A DNA stretch of 64,000 bases from Halorhabdus tiamatea SARL4B (GTDB taxonomy: Archaea; Halobacteriota; Halobacteria; Halobacteriales; Haloarculaceae), in NCBI RefSeq assembly GCF_000470655.1, contig NC_021921.1:1798001-1862000 (forward strand). The letters run 5' to 3'. Position numbers and translations under genes: made by a program. Shown here piece by piece: positions 50,449 through 59,072 of this stretch; position 1 is the first letter of the stretch; every line of letters begins with the position of its first letter. The notes below the pieces were generated by a model. That model saw only the letters and a program-made list of their open reading frames with translations, had not been told where the DNA came from and did no database searches.

Positions 50449-50994
50449 ATGAGCGACCTGACAGCGACTATCGAGACGACCCACGGCGACATCGAGATCG
50501 ACCTCTACGACGAGCGCGTGCCGAGAACCGTCGAGAACTTCGTCAACCTCGCGAAACACGACCCCGCGGCCGACGCCGACCCGGCCCCCGAAACTCCGAC
50601 CTGGGAGGACCCCGAGACGGGCGAGACCCGCGGCGACGCCTTCTATCAGGACACCCCGATCCACCGGATCATCGAGGGCTTCATGGTCCAGATGGGCGAC
50701 CCGACGGGGACCGGCCGCGGCGGCCCGGGGTACACCTTCGACGACGAGTTCCACGACGAGTTGGGCCACGACGGCCCGGGCGTGGTCTCGATGGCCAACT
50801 CCGGCCCGAACACCAACGGCTCGCAGTTCTTCATCACGCTGGACGCCCAGCCCCACCTCGACGGCGACCACGCCGTCTTCGGCGAGGTCGTCGACGGGAT
50901 GGACGTCCTCGAGGAACTCGGGAGCGTCGAAACCGGGCCGCGTGACGAGCCCAAAGGCGACGTTCGACTCGAAGCCGTCCGGATCAACGACTGA
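50449..50994 (+). CDS. Cyclophilin-type peptidyl-prolyl cis-trans isomerase
   Basis: The 181-residue cytoplasmic cyclophilin opens TATIETTHGDIEIDLYDE and contains the active-site segment FYQDTPIHRIIEGFMVQMGDP (catalytic Arg). SMANSGPNTNGSQFFIT and HLDGDHAVFGEVVDGMDVLE complete the family pattern. It accelerates proline isomerisation during protein folding. An acidic insertion (about 38-60, AADADPAPETPTWEDPETGE) is longer than in bacterial PpiB and fits haloadaptation. It is monocistronic. Confidence 0.93.
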   Translation: MSDLTATIETTHGDIEIDLYDERVPRTVENFVNLAKHDPAADADPAPETPTWEDPETGETRGDAFYQDTPIHRIIEGFMVQMGDPTGTGRGGPGYTFDDEFHDELGHDGPGVVSMANSGPNTNGSQFFITLDAQPHLDGDHAVFGEVVDGMDVLEELGSVETGPRDEPKGDVRLEAVRIND

Positions 50995-51022: not shown

Positions 51023-51559
51023 CTATTCCTCCTCGCGCCACTCCTCGGCGAGCAGGCCGTACCAGTGGACGTCCCGGAACCCGCCGTCGGCGAAGACGGC
51101 CTCGCGGTGGACACCCTCGTGAGTGAAGCCAAGGTTCTCAAGGACCTGTCGGGACGGCTGGTTCCCGTCGAACACTTTCGCCTCGATGCGGTGAAAGCCG
51201 AGGTCTCGAAAGCCGTAGTCGACGAGCGTGCCGACGGCGTCGGTGGCATAGCCGTTGCCCTGCTCGTCGGTCGCGACCCAGTAGCCGAGTTCGCCGCGGC
51301 GTGAGTCACCCGAGACCTCGTGGAAGCTCACCATCCCGACCGGCTCGTCCGCCACGGAGATCAGGAGGTGGATCGTCTCCTCGTCCGAAATCGTCTCCTC
51401 GAAGAATTCCGTGAGTTGCTCGCGGTTGGACGGGAACGGCCACCCGAGCGTCCGCCAGACGGCCGGCTCGGCGCGCTCGCGCTGGATAAATTCGAGATCG
51501 TCTTCCTCGATCGTCCGCAACGTCACCGTCTCGCCGTCGAGAAACACTGGTCCGGGCAT
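51023..51559 (-). CDS. GNAT family acetyltransferase (RimJ/RimL-like)
   Basis: The 178-residue GNAT fold protein begins FLDGETVTLRTIEEDDLEFI. The acetyl-CoA binding motif A is ELGYWVATDEQGNGYATDAV (Q/R-x-x-G-x-G/A), followed by the RimJ-like RIEAKVFDGNQPSRQVLENLGF motif B. Enzymes of this type acetylate protein N-termini or small molecules; the substrate is not evident. It converges on the cyclophilin gene. Confidence 0.88.
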   Translation of the reverse strand: MPGPVFLDGETVTLRTIEEDDLEFIQRERAEPAVWRTLGWPFPSNREQLTEFFEETISDEETIHLLISVADEPVGMVSFHEVSGDSRRGELGYWVATDEQGNGYATDAVGTLVDYGFRDLGFHRIEAKVFDGNQPSRQVLENLGFTHEGVHREAVFADGGFRDVHWYGLLAEEWREEE

Positions 51560-51776: not shown

Positions 51777-53672
51777 ATGTCGGACGAGAAAAAACTGAAT
51801 CGACGAAAGTTCCTCGCAGCGACCGGTGCTGCGACGGCGAGCGTCGGACTGGCTGGATGTTCGAGCGGCGACGATACGGACACGCCTGCTGACACCGAGA
51901 CCGACGCGCCCGAGGAAACGGACGAACCGGCAGCGACCGAAACCGACGCTCCGGAAGAGACTACCGAGTCGACGGGCTACGAACCACCGAGTTCGTTCCC
52001 CTATGGGATCAACGAGGCCCAGGTCGGTGAGGCCCAGCGAGTGATGGAAGAGGCCGACTACGGGCCGGACAACACCTACGACCTCGACTGGCTGCAGTAC
52101 CAGAGCCCCGCGTGGAAGGAGATGGCGAATACGATCCGCGCGCGTCTGGACTCCGCGTACATCAACATGAACATCAGCGACGCGGACTTCGGGTCGCTGC
52201 TTGAGACGACCGAGAAGGGGAACCACGAGGCCTATACGCTGGGGTGGGTCGCCGACTACCCCGGAGCCCAGAACTTCCTGCAGCTCATCGACCCGGAGAA
52301 CACCATCTACGACGCCGAGGGCTACACGCCCAACGGCGCGCGGCTGTTCTGGTCCGAGGACGTCCAGGGCGACGAGGAGATCCGCCAGTACATGACCGAG
52401 CAGTTCGACCGAATCCAGAACAACCCCGGCCTCGGTGAGGAAGCCACGAGTACGCGGAACGACGCCGCTGTCAAGATGGAGCGGGCGTTGTGGGACTCGG
52501 CGGCACTCCTGCCGGTCTATCACACCGTCGACCAGCTGTTCTGGTACGATCGCGTCGACTTCAACCCGCCCGGCGGGATGGGGCCCTCCCGAGCGAAGGA
52601 GAACGTCTCGGTCAACGGCATCGAAGGCAAAGACGTTCTCAACGGCACGTCGGCCACGTTCAGCTCCCTCGACCCGATCGCGTCGGGCAACACCGCGAGT
52701 GGGGGCAAGGTCATCAACCTGTTCGACGCACCGATGAACTACGTCAACGGGACGACGGAAGTCGAACCCCTCATCGTCGAGGACTACTCGGTCAGCGACG
52801 ACCTCACGGAGTACGAGTTCACGCTCAAGGAGGGTATCCAGTTCCACGGCGATTACGGCGAGGTCACCGCCGACGACGTGGTCTACTCGATCCAGCGGCT
52901 CGTCGAGTCCAGCAACTCCACGAACACCTACTTCCCGCTGTCGGTGCTCCAGATCGAGCACGAGACCGACGACGAGGGCAACGTCGTGTCCGGTTCGACC
53001 GCCGTCGAGGCGACGGGCGAGTACACGTTCACGGTCTCGCTCGCCGCACCGTTCGGCTACGCGCTCGAGGTGCTCGCGTACTCGGCGTTCTCGGTCGTCC
53101 CCGAAGGCATCGTCGGCGACGTCGAGGGCTACGACGGCGACATGGAGTGGCAGGAGTTCTCGACGAATCCGGTCGGTTGTGGCCCGTTCGTCTTCGAAGG
53201 GTGGCAGGAAGGCAACGGTGGCGAGTTCCGCGCCTCGGCCTTCGCAGACTACCACGGCGATGCGGCGGACTTCGGCCTCCACGACGCCATCATCACCGAC
53301 ACCACCGCCCTGTACAACTACTTCCGCAACGGGAACGCCGACGTCGCCGCCATCCCGACGTCCCAGTACGACCCCGCACTGGCCAACGCGGAGTCGACCA
53401 ACGAGCAGGGCCAGACGCTTGGCACGTACGGCCCACTCGACGACGGGACGGAAGTCAACATGTCCGAGACCCCCTCGATCAACACCTACTTCATCGGGTT
53501 CAACATGGAGGAGGTCCCCAAGCCCGTCCGCGAGGCGATGGCCTACGTGCTCACCCGTGAGGATTTCGTCGAGAGCGTCTTCAAGGGTCGCGGCGAGGCC
53601 GCCTACCACCTCCTCCCCAAACAGGTCTTCCCCGGCGGTGCCGAGAACTACGACGCGAACTACCAGGGATAA
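51777..53672 (+). CDS. Peptide-type ABC substrate-binding lipoprotein, apparently circularly permuted
   Basis: The 631-residue protein has a Tat leader (NRRKFLAATGAA, lipobox Cys28) and a Thr/Glu/Asp linker. Residues about 72-277 are what normally forms the C-terminal part of SBP_bac_5 proteins (YGINEAQVGEAQRVMEEADYG; YTLGWVADYPGAQNFLQLI; LLPVYHTVDQLFWYDRVDF; GGMGPSRAKEN). Residues 288-631 are the normal N-terminal part (NGTSATFSSLDPIASGNTASG; VTADDVVYSIQRLV; TSQYDPA; GFNMEEVPKPVREAMAYVL; YHLLPKQVFPGGAENYD), where the gene stops. Placing the end before residue 72 restores canonical order, so the domains are permuted. Permease and ATPase genes follow. Confidence 0.88.
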   Translation: MSDEKKLNRRKFLAATGAATASVGLAGCSSGDDTDTPADTETDAPEETDEPAATETDAPEETTESTGYEPPSSFPYGINEAQVGEAQRVMEEADYGPDNTYDLDWLQYQSPAWKEMANTIRARLDSAYINMNISDADFGSLLETTEKGNHEAYTLGWVADYPGAQNFLQLIDPENTIYDAEGYTPNGARLFWSEDVQGDEEIRQYMTEQFDRIQNNPGLGEEATSTRNDAAVKMERALWDSAALLPVYHTVDQLFWYDRVDFNPPGGMGPSRAKENVSVNGIEGKDVLNGTSATFSSLDPIASGNTASGGKVINLFDAPMNYVNGTTEVEPLIVEDYSVSDDLTEYEFTLKEGIQFHGDYGEVTADDVVYSIQRLVESSNSTNTYFPLSVLQIEHETDDEGNVVSGSTAVEATGEYTFTVSLAAPFGYALEVLAYSAFSVVPEGIVGDVEGYDGDMEWQEFSTNPVGCGPFVFEGWQEGNGGEFRASAFADYHGDAADFGLHDAIITDTTALYNYFRNGNADVAAIPTSQYDPALANAESTNEQGQTLGTYGPLDDGTEVNMSETPSINTYFIGFNMEEVPKPVREAMAYVLTREDFVESVFKGRGEAAYHLLPKQVFPGGAENYDANYQG

Positions 53673-53939: not shown

Positions 53940-55028
53940 ATGAATCGGCTGCTGTATCTCGCCAAGCGACTGTTGCTCGCGGTCCCGGTCTTCCTGTTCG
54001 GTGTGACGATGAGTTTCATCGTCCTGTATCTGGGCCCGATCGACCCCGTTTTGAACATTCTCGGACAGGACGCGACGCCGGAGGACGTCCGTCAGTTGCG
54101 GATCGCCCTCGGACTCATCTATCCCGACGGCTCGACGGTTCCGCTGTGGGATCAGTACCGAAAGGTCCTCATCGATCTGGTGACGTTCAACTTCGGCCAG
54201 TCGTGGATCATCCAGCGTGGGACGCCGGTCAGCGATCTCATCATGAACCGGATGCCCGTGACGCTGTGGCTCGGGTTCTGGTCGGTCGTCGTCGCACTGA
54301 TAGTCGGCATTCCCGGCGGCCTCTATGCCGGTCTGCGGGCCAACACCTGGCGGGATTACCTCACCTCGGGAGGGGGGATCATCTGGCGGGCGATGCCGAA
54401 CTTCTGGCTCGCCGTGATGTTCGTCGGCCTGCTCTCGGCCGGCGGTCTCCTGTCGTTTTACCCCGACTTCATCGTTCGGACCGACGTGATCGGGACGTCC
54501 GATTCGATCTCAAACATGGTCGGCGAGATCGAACTCTTCACTCGTATCCCGGAATTCCAAACAACGGTCACGGGTCCACAGTTGACGAACATCGCCATCG
54601 CGATCAAGTGGATCCTGCCAGCGGCGCTCGTGCTGGGATCCTCGTCGATGGGCAACGAGATCCGGATCGGCCGGACCGCCGTCCTCGAGAGCATCAACTC
54701 GAAGTACGTCGAGACAGCAAAGGCCAAGGGCGTCTCCGGGCGGCGCATCGTGACCAAACACGTCGGCCGCAACGCCCTGATCCCACTCCTCCCGATCATC
54801 ATGAGCGAGTTCTACCTGCTGATCGGGGGGTCGGTCCTCGTCGAGAAGGTCTTCTCGATCCGGGGGCTCGGCAACATGTTCTTCCGTGGTGTCCTCGGTC
54901 CGGACATCCCCCTCGTGATGGCACTCGTCTTCCTGTTCATCATCGTCCAGGTCACCGTCAACATCGCCCAGGACATCCTGTATACGTTCATCGACCCGCG
55001 GATCACGCTGGAGGACACTGAGAGGTGA
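53940..55028 (+). CDS. dppB: Peptide-type ABC transporter permease (DppB-like)
   Basis: The 362-residue permease opens with helix LLYLAKRLLLAVPVFLFGVTMSFIVLY and has about six helices. The EAA motif is VLESINSKYVETAKAKGVSGRRIVTKHVGRNALIPL. This is the first permease of a peptide/nickel-type importer. It lies 267 bp after the binding-protein gene; that gap (53673-53939) contains no gene but could hold a processing site or a second promoter. The stop overlaps the next gene's possible GTG start. Confidence 0.92.
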   Translation: MNRLLYLAKRLLLAVPVFLFGVTMSFIVLYLGPIDPVLNILGQDATPEDVRQLRIALGLIYPDGSTVPLWDQYRKVLIDLVTFNFGQSWIIQRGTPVSDLIMNRMPVTLWLGFWSVVVALIVGIPGGLYAGLRANTWRDYLTSGGGIIWRAMPNFWLAVMFVGLLSAGGLLSFYPDFIVRTDVIGTSDSISNMVGEIELFTRIPEFQTTVTGPQLTNIAIAIKWILPAALVLGSSSMGNEIRIGRTAVLESINSKYVETAKAKGVSGRRIVTKHVGRNALIPLLPIIMSEFYLLIGGSVLVEKVFSIRGLGNMFFRGVLGPDIPLVMALVFLFIIVQVTVNIAQDILYTFIDPRITLEDTER

Positions 55029-55033
55029 CATCG

Positions 55034-56644
55034 ATGTCGGACACTGAATCTACCACGACGCGCGAAGAGTTGACCGGGTTCGAACGCGTGCCGCTCCGGA
55101 CGCGAATCGCCGAATCCCCGCGACCGTTCCTCCGGTGGTTCTCGGTCCTCGTCGTCTTGATCGCCGTCGAGTTCGGCACGTACGCGAAACTCGCGTTCAC
55201 CCTGGTCGAAGCGACGTTCGTCGGCGTGACGGCGTTTTTCGAGCTTCTCGCCGGGACGGTCTCCAGTAGTGCGGCGAGTGCGATCCTCGACGTCCAGGCT
55301 GCCGGGGCCGAGTTCCTCGGCGGATTGACAGAGTGGGCTGGCTCACTCCCGACGCTGTTCGGCCGGGAAACCATCCCCAATCAGGGGTATCAACTCGGTC
55401 CGGGCGGCACCTGGGACGGGACAGTACTGGGGATCGAGCCCCCGGAAGCAATCGCGGATCTGCCGGTCGTATTCGATTGGAAAGGGACGTTCCTCGGCCT
55501 CGAACCCGCGCTCGCGTGGGCGTTGCGCCTGACGCTCATCGTCGCCTACGCGATGTTTCTGGCCTACTGGCTGTTCCGCGGCTGGACGGTCTTTCGTGAC
55601 CACTACCGCCAGGCCGACTGGACGCCGACCGACGACATGATCGGGCGGCTCAAGGGCCACCGCTGGGGGCAGTTCGGCATCCTCGTCCTGTTGTTGTACC
55701 TGACGATGGCGATCTTCGGGCCGGCGCTCGGGCCGACGACCGTCGAGCAGAACATCCAGAGTTCCTACAGCCACGAGATCAAGTACTTCGACGAGGAGGC
55801 GGAATCCGTCGAGACGATCTTCGTCGGCGAGGCCAATTTCAACTCGAAGTCCAAGGGGAGCGGTGAAAACGTCGGCCCGATGACCTACGACGACTTCGAC
55901 CGGTTCCATCCGTTCGGGACGCTCAACAACGGTCGTGATCTGTTCACGTTCCTCATGGGCGGGGCACGCATCACGATGATCGTCGCGGGGATGGCGATCG
56001 GGATCGCGACGCTCATCGCGGCCACACTGTCGATGATCTCGGCGTACTACGCCGGATCGGTCGACCTCACGATCTTGACAACGGCCGACGGGATCGTCTC
56101 GGTCCCCCGGCTGATATTGTTGATCATGGTGAGTGCCGTCTTTGCAAACCACTGGCTCGGGAACATCCTCGACGGCGGGTTCATCCTGGCGCTGGTGTTT
56201 GCCTTCACCACGTGGCCGCTGCTGTGGCGGGCCGTGCGTGGCCCCGCGCTCCAGGTCGCCCAGGAGGAGTGGGTCGACGCGGCCCGGAGCTTCGGTCAGC
56301 GCCCGCGCACCATCATGCGCAAGCACATGCTTCCGTACATCGTCGGCTACCTCCTGGTGTACGCCTCGATGACGACCGGGGGCATCATCATCAGCCTCTC
56401 GGCGCTATCGTTCCTCGGGAACGGGCTCGGCATCAGCGCGCCGACGCCGGCCTGGGGGCGAGCCGTCTCGCTGGGCCAGAGTTACGTCGCGACGTCATCC
56501 TGGCACATCTCGCTGCTCTCGGGGCTGATCATCGTCGTGCTCGTGACCGGCCTGAACGCCTTCGGTGACGGGATCCGGGACGCGATCGACCCCGAGACCG
56601 AGAGTGCCGAGGCCGAGGAGGCGGCCGCTGGAGGTGGTGCCTGA
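55034..56644 (+). CDS. dppC: Peptide-type ABC transporter permease (DppC-like)
   Basis: The 536-residue permease is longer than bacterial DppC (around 300) because of an N-terminal extension of some 220 residues containing helices near 35-55 and 170-190. The canonical DppC portion then starts with RLKGHRWGQFGILVLLLYLTMAIFGP. An extracellular loop (about 240-290) precedes DRFHPFGTLNNGRDLFTFLMGGARI and the EAA motif QEEWVDAARSFGQRPRTIMRKHMLPY. ATG 55034 is chosen; a GTG at 55025 overlapping the upstream stop is possible. The last codons overlap the ATPase gene. Confidence 0.9.
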   Translation: MSDTESTTTREELTGFERVPLRTRIAESPRPFLRWFSVLVVLIAVEFGTYAKLAFTLVEATFVGVTAFFELLAGTVSSSAASAILDVQAAGAEFLGGLTEWAGSLPTLFGRETIPNQGYQLGPGGTWDGTVLGIEPPEAIADLPVVFDWKGTFLGLEPALAWALRLTLIVAYAMFLAYWLFRGWTVFRDHYRQADWTPTDDMIGRLKGHRWGQFGILVLLLYLTMAIFGPALGPTTVEQNIQSSYSHEIKYFDEEAESVETIFVGEANFNSKSKGSGENVGPMTYDDFDRFHPFGTLNNGRDLFTFLMGGARITMIVAGMAIGIATLIAATLSMISAYYAGSVDLTILTTADGIVSVPRLILLIMVSAVFANHWLGNILDGGFILALVFAFTTWPLLWRAVRGPALQVAQEEWVDAARSFGQRPRTIMRKHMLPYIVGYLLVYASMTTGGIIISLSALSFLGNGLGISAPTPAWGRAVSLGQSYVATSSWHISLLSGLIIVVLVTGLNAFGDGIRDAIDPETESAEAEEAAAGGGA

Positions 56645-57738
56645 TGTCCCGTGAACGCACCGCCGAGAGCGTGCGTGACGAGGGCGAGCCGTTACTCTCA
56701 GTCCGAAATCTCCAGACGGTCTTCCACACTGACCGGGAGACGATTCGGGCCGTCGACGACGTGAGCTTCGATGTCTACCCCGGCGAGACGGTCGGCATCG
56801 TGGGCGAGTCGGGATCGGGCAAGAGCGTCACTGCTCGCTCGATCATGGGGCTGGTCGACTCCCCCGGCGAGGTGCTCGCGGAGTCGTCGATCCGGTTCAA
56901 CGGCGAGGAGCTGACGAGCCTCTCGGACGCCGCCTATCGCGACGTCCGGGGGAGCGGTATCGGCATGGTGTTCCAGGACCCCCAGCAGTCGTTGAACCCC
57001 GTCTACACGATCGGCAACCAGATCAGGGAAGCCCTGGAGATCAACCGGGGTATCACGGGCGCGGAAGCGACCGCGGAGGCGACGGACTTACTCGAGTCGG
57101 TCGGCATCCCCGACGCGAAACGTCGCCTCGACGAGTACCCCCACGAGTTCTCCGGCGGGATGCGCCAGCGCGCCGTCATCGCGATGATGCTGGCCTGTGA
57201 GCCCGACCTGCTGATCGCCGACGAGCCGACGACCGCCCTGGACGTGACGATCCAGGCTCAGATCCTGGACTTGCTGAAGGAGCTCCAGAAGGAGCGCAAC
57301 CTCGCGATCCTCTTTATCACTCACGACATGGGCGTCATCGCCGACATCTCCGATCGCGTGAACGTGATGTACGCCGGACAGATCGTCGAGAAGGCCTCGG
57401 TCGAGAACCTCTTCGAGCGCCCGAAACACCCCTATACGCGGGCGCTGATCGAGTCGATCCCCGGCGAGCACTCCCGCGGGGAGGGGCTCAACACCATCGA
57501 GGGCGAGGTGCCGACGCCGAACGCGCCGGCCGACCACTGCCGGTTCGCCCCGCGGTGCCCGCAGGCGTTCGGGGCCTGCGACGAGATGGCCCCCCAGCAC
57601 ATCGACGTCGGCGAGACAGTCGAACACACGGCAGCGTGTCTGCTGTATCCGGAAGGGGAAACAGAGACGGAGCGACTCGAACACCATCGCGCACTCGCGA
57701 GTGGCGAGGACGTCGACACGGAAGGTGAGCACCGATGA
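56644..57738 (+). CDS. dppD: Peptide-type ABC transporter ATPase (DppD-like)
   Basis: The 364-residue ATPase has Walker [11 protein letters not shown]-loop [14 protein letters not shown], signature [11 protein letters not shown], Walker [15 protein letters not shown] and switch His in FITHDMGVI. The oligopeptide-type C-terminal extension has the Cys-containing [16 protein letters not shown] (possible iron-sulphur or zinc site of Opp/Dpp ATPases). It pairs with the following DppF-like ATPase as a heterodimer energising the importer. Confidence 0.94.
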
Positions 57739-59072
57739 GCGGGGACCTACAACGGACCGACCAGGTGGCCGAGAGCGGCGAGACGCTGATCGAGGTCGAG
57801 AACTTGAAGAAGTACTACGGCGGTGGCGGCGTCTTCGCCAACCCGTCGGTAAAGGCCGTCGACGGCGTGAGCTTCTCGATCAAGCGCGGCGAGACACTCG
57901 GCCTCGTCGGCGAGTCCGGGTGTGGGAAGAGTACGCTCGGTCGGACGCTCGTCCGCCTAGAGGAGGCCACCGAGGGGACGATTTCCTTCGACGGGACCGA
58001 CATCACGACGCTCTCGGGCGAGGACCTGAAAGACTGGCGTCGTAACGCCCAGATGGTCTTTCAGGACCCCGAATCCAGCCTTAACGACCGGATGACCGTC
58101 GGGGAGATTATCCGCGAGCCGCTGGACGCCCACGACTGGAAGACCAAGACGGAGCGCCAGGAGCGGGTGCTCGACTTGCTGACGTCGGTCGGGCTCCGGG
58201 AGGAACACTACTACCGGTATCCCCACCAGTTCTCGGGCGGCCAGCGCCAGCGCGTCGGCATCGCGCGGGCACTCGCGCTCGAACCGGAGTTTCTCGTCCT
58301 CGACGAGCCGGTCAGCGCGCTGGACGTCTCCGTCCAGGCGAAGATCATCACGCTGCTGGAGGACCTCCAGGAGGAGTTCGACCTGACGTACCTCTTCATC
58401 GCCCACGACCTGGCCGTCGTCCGTCACATCTGTGATCGCGTCGCGGTCATGTACCTCGGGAAGATCATGGAGATCAGCGACACCGAAGCGGTCTACGAGA
58501 ACGCCCAGAACCCCTACACGCAATCGCTCCTCTCGGCGATTCCGCGACCCGATCCCTCGACGTCCTCTCACCGGATCACGCTCCCGGGGACCCCACCCAG
58601 CCCACGCGATCCGCCGACGGGGTGTCAGTTCTCGACGCGGTGTCCGGCCAAGATCCGGCCGGAGGGCTACGACCACGTCGGCGAAGAGACCTGGGACGCG
58701 ATCGAGCGCTTCCGGGAGGTCGTCCGCGAGCGGTCGCGGATGAGTCTCGGGACAGTCGATCGTCTCAAACGCCAGCTCGGCACGTTCTCGGCGTACGACG
58801 ACATCGACGAGACGGTCGCGGACCTCTTTGGCGACCTCGAGGTACCCGCGGACGTCCGCGAGGAGATCGATGCTGCCGCCGAGCTGGTCAAAGACGGCCG
58901 CCCCGCGGACGCACGTGACCACCTCGGGGAAGCGTTCAACGGCGTGTGTGACCTGCAACGCCCCGACTTCCATCCGGTCGGCGAGCACGAGCATATGAGC
59001 TACTGTCACCGTCACGACGCCGAATACGAGGACGTCGAGCCAGTCATCTCCCGCCGGACCAGTGACTCCTAA
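57735..59072 (+). CDS. dppF: Peptide-type ABC transporter ATPase (DppF-like)
   Basis: The 445-residue ATPase overlaps dppD by ATGA. It has Walker [10 protein letters not shown], signature [11 protein letters not shown], Walker [13 protein letters not shown] and switch FIAHDLAVV. The family C-terminal [11 protein letters not shown] is followed by an unusual extra region of about 100 residues ([16 protein letters not shown] to [14 protein letters not shown]) that is longer than in bacterial DppF and includes a second Cys/His-bearing stretch. It forms the second nucleotide-binding subunit. Confidence 0.93.

Follow-up and report, generated by a model that had tools for sequence, protein, structure and literature searches.

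The window (the whole 64,000-nucleotide stretch of Halorhabdus tiamatea SARL4B DNA that was analysed) carries on its forward strand a gene for a circularly permuted lipoprotein of the SBP_bac_5 family, designated here a type A permutant (51777..53672; ATG at 51777, stop codon ending at 53672; 631 aa). All features described within it lie on the same strand. A predicted Tat signal with a lipobox (51777..51860; NRRKFL at residues 8-13 and LAGC at residues 25-28) precedes an acidic tether of about 45 residues, recognised by a sequence rich in Thr, Glu and Asp (51861..51995). The block that closes the canonical protein is placed first (51996..52631; residues 74-285), the new N-terminus of the fold being at FPYGINEAQ, and the block that opens it is placed last (52632..53669; residues 286-631), with a new C-terminus at FPGGAENYDANYQG. 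Between them, a new internal join (52587..52679) connects the canonical C-end (SRAKENVSV) to the canonical N-start (DVLNGTSA...SLDP). Four genes follow, also on the forward strand, encoding a dppB-type permease (53940..55028; BPD_transp_1), a dppC-type permease (55025..56644; BPD_transp_1 and OppC_N), a dppD-type ATPase (56644..57738; ABC_tran and oligo_HPY) and a dppF-type ATPase (57735..59072; ABC_tran and oligo_HPY). The two ORFs on the upstream side appear ordinary when their translations are read by eye: one is peptidyl-prolyl isomerase-like (50449-50994, forward strand) and the other, just upstream of the permuted gene, is GNAT acetyltransferase-like (51023-51559, reverse strand).

The window protein matched SBP_bac_5 (PF00496) with 172.7 bits, against a curated cut-off of 32.4, in two stretches. 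In separate Pfam scans, residues 60-286 aligned with profile positions 244-361 (E 4e-9), and residues 287-631 with positions 1-261 (E 6e-42). Likewise, a normal-order paralogue encoded in the same genome matches residues 294-620 of the window protein first and residues 70-268 second. This swapped order is far beyond chance and, since the C-block precedes the N-block, the protein is a permuted variant and not a canonical member of the family. Alignment of the rotated protein with canonical haloarchaeal homologues placed the cut between NYDANYQG, at the C-terminus, and FPYGINEAQ, at residue 74, with essentially no loss or duplication of sequence. At the join, approximately 29 residues separate two conserved motifs; canonical tails are between 10 and 37 residues long, with a median of 14.5. 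Hence, the join contains little beyond the two old ends. Both blocks are thus homologous to the canonical relative and swapped without essential loss, as defines a circular permutation. The sequence-only reading had anticipated much of this: it placed the canonical C-terminal segments first (at residues 72-277), ended the gene where the canonical chain would continue, regarded the join as seamless and proposed a circular permutation with the signal peptide kept, all of which is borne out by the Pfam scans, the same-genome paralogue and the rotated alignment. The twin-arginine motif RRKFL and the lipobox LAGC lie near the N-terminus, and every type A protein carries the motif; judged from the motif alone, Cys28 is the predicted lipidation site. 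An AF2 prediction of the window protein made with five sequences only gave a pLDDT of 32. No duplication scar or remnant was found among the DNA repeats around the gene, as expected if the event is old.

The same arrangement was found well beyond this genome. Full-length orthologues are present in same-genus genomes at 78-82% identity, and in Halorhabdus salina, a Halodesulfurarchaeum MAG, Halolamina salifodinae and Halobacterium salinarum DSM 3754 at 58-81% identity. When 122 distinct relatives were segmented to survey block order, 28 of them, including the H. salinarum protein, displayed the type A order (C1-C2-N) and formed one clade, with an SH-aLRT of 100 in the large tree and support of 98/91 in the careful one. 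Permuted genes are under purifying selection (pairwise dN/dS of permuted pairs of approximately 0.08-0.2). Misassembly of a normal gene or of two genes, a risk raised by the sequence-only reading that applies in general to any single assembly and has no positive evidence here, is excluded for practical purposes, because the type A order recurs identically in 27 of the independent haloarchaeal genomes sampled, as well as in named records from four genera, and the gene is intact, followed by an operon and under purifying selection. That reading had also held that an established subfamily with this segment order would speak against it. The arrangement is indeed fixed in a haloarchaeal clade, but this marks the permutation as old and inherited and is no argument against it.

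A single event had been implied as well; instead, the window gene is one of many permutants in the SBP_bac_5 family. Among haloarchaeal relatives, 39 exhibited the order C2-N-C1 (type B). A third order (type C), in which the first ~120 residues of the N block are shifted to the end, was seen in two. For the large type B clade of 41 haloarchaeal genes, the order was read from the DNA for 38 in the main set and for the other three later. All sequences were rotated to normal order before alignment, and trees were built in 122-row and 59-row versions. In both, the order label needed five changes, corresponding to type A, the large type B clade (whose sister group has normal order), a lone type B gene (L122) within a normal-order clade, and two separately placed type C genes. 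The AU test rejected a single origin of the type B genes (p 1.6e-66), and likewise of the type C genes (p 1.6e-8). Different cut sites in nested positions require separate events. Within the haloarchaea, no fewer than five independent permutations are needed, distributed over three cut sites. The cuts recur at few sites, which align to variable loop-like stretches, and the joins are short. Of 392 genomes sampled from the order, 70 contained permuted genes detected by a join-spanning profile, 71 genes in all, and a clear gap in score separated permutants (at least 151 bits) from normal-order genes (at most 118 bits). Of the plasmid records, 998 had a match, none of them extending over 80% of the join-spanning query at a single location, and no permutant was found there.

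Spanning matches to this profile were also obtained in the family of genome G499, which we take to be A. fulgidus; the names Archaeoglobus and Archaeoglobaceae used here depend on that assignment. The gene is permuted in G499 and in two further species of its genus, and has the normal order in four others. Permuted and normal-order genes align at the DNA level in two swapped blocks with ~79% nucleotide identity, and the permuted protein matches solved structures of the DppA type in two stretches. The cut lies approximately one helix later than that of the window protein. One independent permutation within Archaeoglobus is thereby shown, besides the haloarchaeal events. Seven ORFs of ~710 (706-766) residues from other genomes of the same family (L200-L206, in G438, G530, G562, G483, G636, G614 and G444, respectively) exhibit a B-like cut; they form a separate permuted subfamily, and dppBC follows the gene. 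In another permuted SBP (L175, G558:C2:100665-109060), a PGF-CTERM motif is found at the new C-terminus, which suggests a putative archaeosortase-type anchoring at the end opposite to the usual lipid anchor.

The survey was extended to 199 genomes of Planctomycetota, the phylum of L039. Several permutants were identified, with cuts near the type A and Archaeoglobus positions, and L212 (G713), a gene adjoined by dppB and dppC, is cut at a fifth site, immediately ahead of the PVGTGPF motif. In addition, four ORFs of 1834-1931 residues (L223, L224, L225 and L226, from G706, G655, G760 and G707, respectively) contain two SBP_bac_5 domains head to tail; both copies are clear in three of them, and the second copy of L224 is partly matched. 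L223, the one tandem ORF scanned in Pfam, also contains kinase and AAA domains. Long branches and the small number of normal-order Planctomycetota genes keep the cross-phylum tree from giving an exact event count; with this thin sampling, event counts outside the haloarchaea are provisional. The same features, together with the recurrence of the same two loops as cut sites, leave some room for one ancient permutation followed by reversions to normal order, or for horizontal spread of permuted genes. However, one ancestral permutation with reversions is rejected for types B and C by the AU tests, and the Archaeoglobus permutants nest among normal-order orthologues from their own genus. Thus, we consider this explanation very improbable, and repeated, independent permutation is the reading followed below.

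The genomic context of the permuted genes is that of a Dpp/Opp importer, with DppBC permeases and DppDF ATPases adjoining the gene in the window. Directly downstream and on the same strand, dppB was found at all 28 type A loci, at both type C loci and at 36 of the 39 type B loci, and type A loci displayed the full dppBCDF set wherever the fetched sequence was long enough. Independently arisen permutants likewise adjoin dppBCDF. Expression of one dpp operon of H. salinarum (dppAB1C2-oppD2-ykfD), including separate transcripts of dppA, has been described (PMC4299497); judging from gene order, the dppA of that operon would be the permuted gene. As predicted from these features, the type A protein would be exported through Tat, with a lipid on Cys28 and a flexible tether as its anchor. 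It would probably adopt the usual two-lobed binding-protein fold, in a chain that would begin in a normally internal loop and have its old ends connected by a short loop, and would hand its ligand, presumably a peptide, to the DppBCDF importer encoded next door. A role outside transport, as a receptor or other surface protein, might be suggested by L126 (G027:C1:2515689-2528288), a single 975-residue ORF in which a weak protein-kinase match and a Tat-like hydrophobic segment precede a type B SBP. No dpp genes were detected alongside L126, which is possibly a sensor kinase using a permuted SBP, and the fusion indicates that reuse of permuted SBPs is possible. Nevertheless, for the permutants as a group such a role is quite unlikely, given that dppB, and mostly dppBCDF, follows nearly every one of them, including those of independent origin. 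In our view, the gene in the window very probably encodes a working peptide-type binding lipoprotein that was permuted once in the ancestor of the haloarchaeal clade and has been kept since, with a likely origin by duplication.

The tandem duplication with loss of the outer parts proposed in the sequence-only reading is, we infer, the most likely origin of the permuted genes, its best support coming from Archaeoglobus and from the tandem SBPs of Planctomycetota. The SBP gene would have been duplicated head to tail and the copies fused; the signal peptide and most of the tether of the second copy would then have been lost. A deletion from the first tether to an internal loop, and a new stop codon in the equivalent loop of the second copy, would have completed the change. 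In the structures of OppA and DppA the two chain ends belong to one lobe, an arrangement that would ease such joins; the short join of the window protein is an indirect hint that its old ends may be near each other. The Archaeoglobus join (RYYLVY-SEEQKD-TITIGV) resembles the old C-end, then the last part of a tether, then the old N-start, which fits duplication, fusion and trimming. The fused tandem SBPs represent the expected kind of intermediate, but they occur in kinase-linked Planctomycetota proteins and are not direct ancestors of the permutants. Two normal-order SBP genes were observed on the same strand, ~4 kb apart, at L142 (G396:C13:487913-498393), and tandem paralogy of this type could act as a seed of fusions. 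In the type C gene L097, a 9-base motif, GTCGAACAG, is common to both ends, and could be due to chance. Fission and fusion, in which the gene would have been split in two and later rejoined in the other order, is a recognised alternative model for circular permutation (PMC3320104), and the clean joining of the two blocks is consistent with it. Nevertheless, each half would have required its own export signal, no locus with separate half-genes was seen among the relatives examined, and both the tether-like residues at the Archaeoglobus join and the existing tandem fusions fit duplication better. Hence, we regard fission and fusion as unlikely and retain permutation by duplication.

Natural circular permutation of large proteins has usually been reported as a rare, one-off occurrence. 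Among the open-licence papers searched, no report of permuted solute-binding proteins of the SBP_bac_5 family, or of their genes, was found, and recurrent permutation of this family in archaea and bacteria seems to be previously undescribed. The family offers repeated and phylogenetically placed permutations, normal and permuted orthologues within one genus, and fused tandem copies that are extant elsewhere, allowing direct tests of how permutation happens, of how far a two-lobed binding protein tolerates changes in chain order, and of whether the position of the anchor matters for ABC import. The findings also have practical consequences: permuted SBP genes are split or missed by order-dependent annotation, and the natural cut sites may be useful for biosensors built from binding proteins. 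Tentatively, and as an idea that may well prove wrong, SBP_bac_5 could be seen as a permutation hot spot, with about 10 events at about five loops in Archaea and Planctomycetota, favoured by adjacent old ends and a modular tether, in which the shift of the anchor may have been selected through docking to the importer.

One of the closest known systems is the Archaeoglobus SBP of G499, likewise an SBP_bac_5 lipoprotein rearranged in this manner and encoded beside a dpp operon; it differs in that the event is young enough for DNA-level alignment with normal-order orthologues. The window protein has in common with DppA and OppA (cluster C; PDB 1dpp, 3m8u) all the canonical blocks, the DppBCDF operon and the lipoprotein signal, whereas its blocks are reversed, its fold starts at an internal loop and its old termini are fused. 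Saposin/swaposin and DNA methyltransferases are natural circular permutants made by duplication (PMC3320104), and resemble the SBP case in their swapped blocks and preserved sequence; fused duplicates are known in their families and, for SBP_bac_5, in the kinase-linked Planctomycetota proteins. In contrast to them, the SBP case concerns a large, secreted and presumably two-lobed receptor, and a single haloarchaeal clade accounts for five or more independent events, at several cut sites, with more elsewhere.
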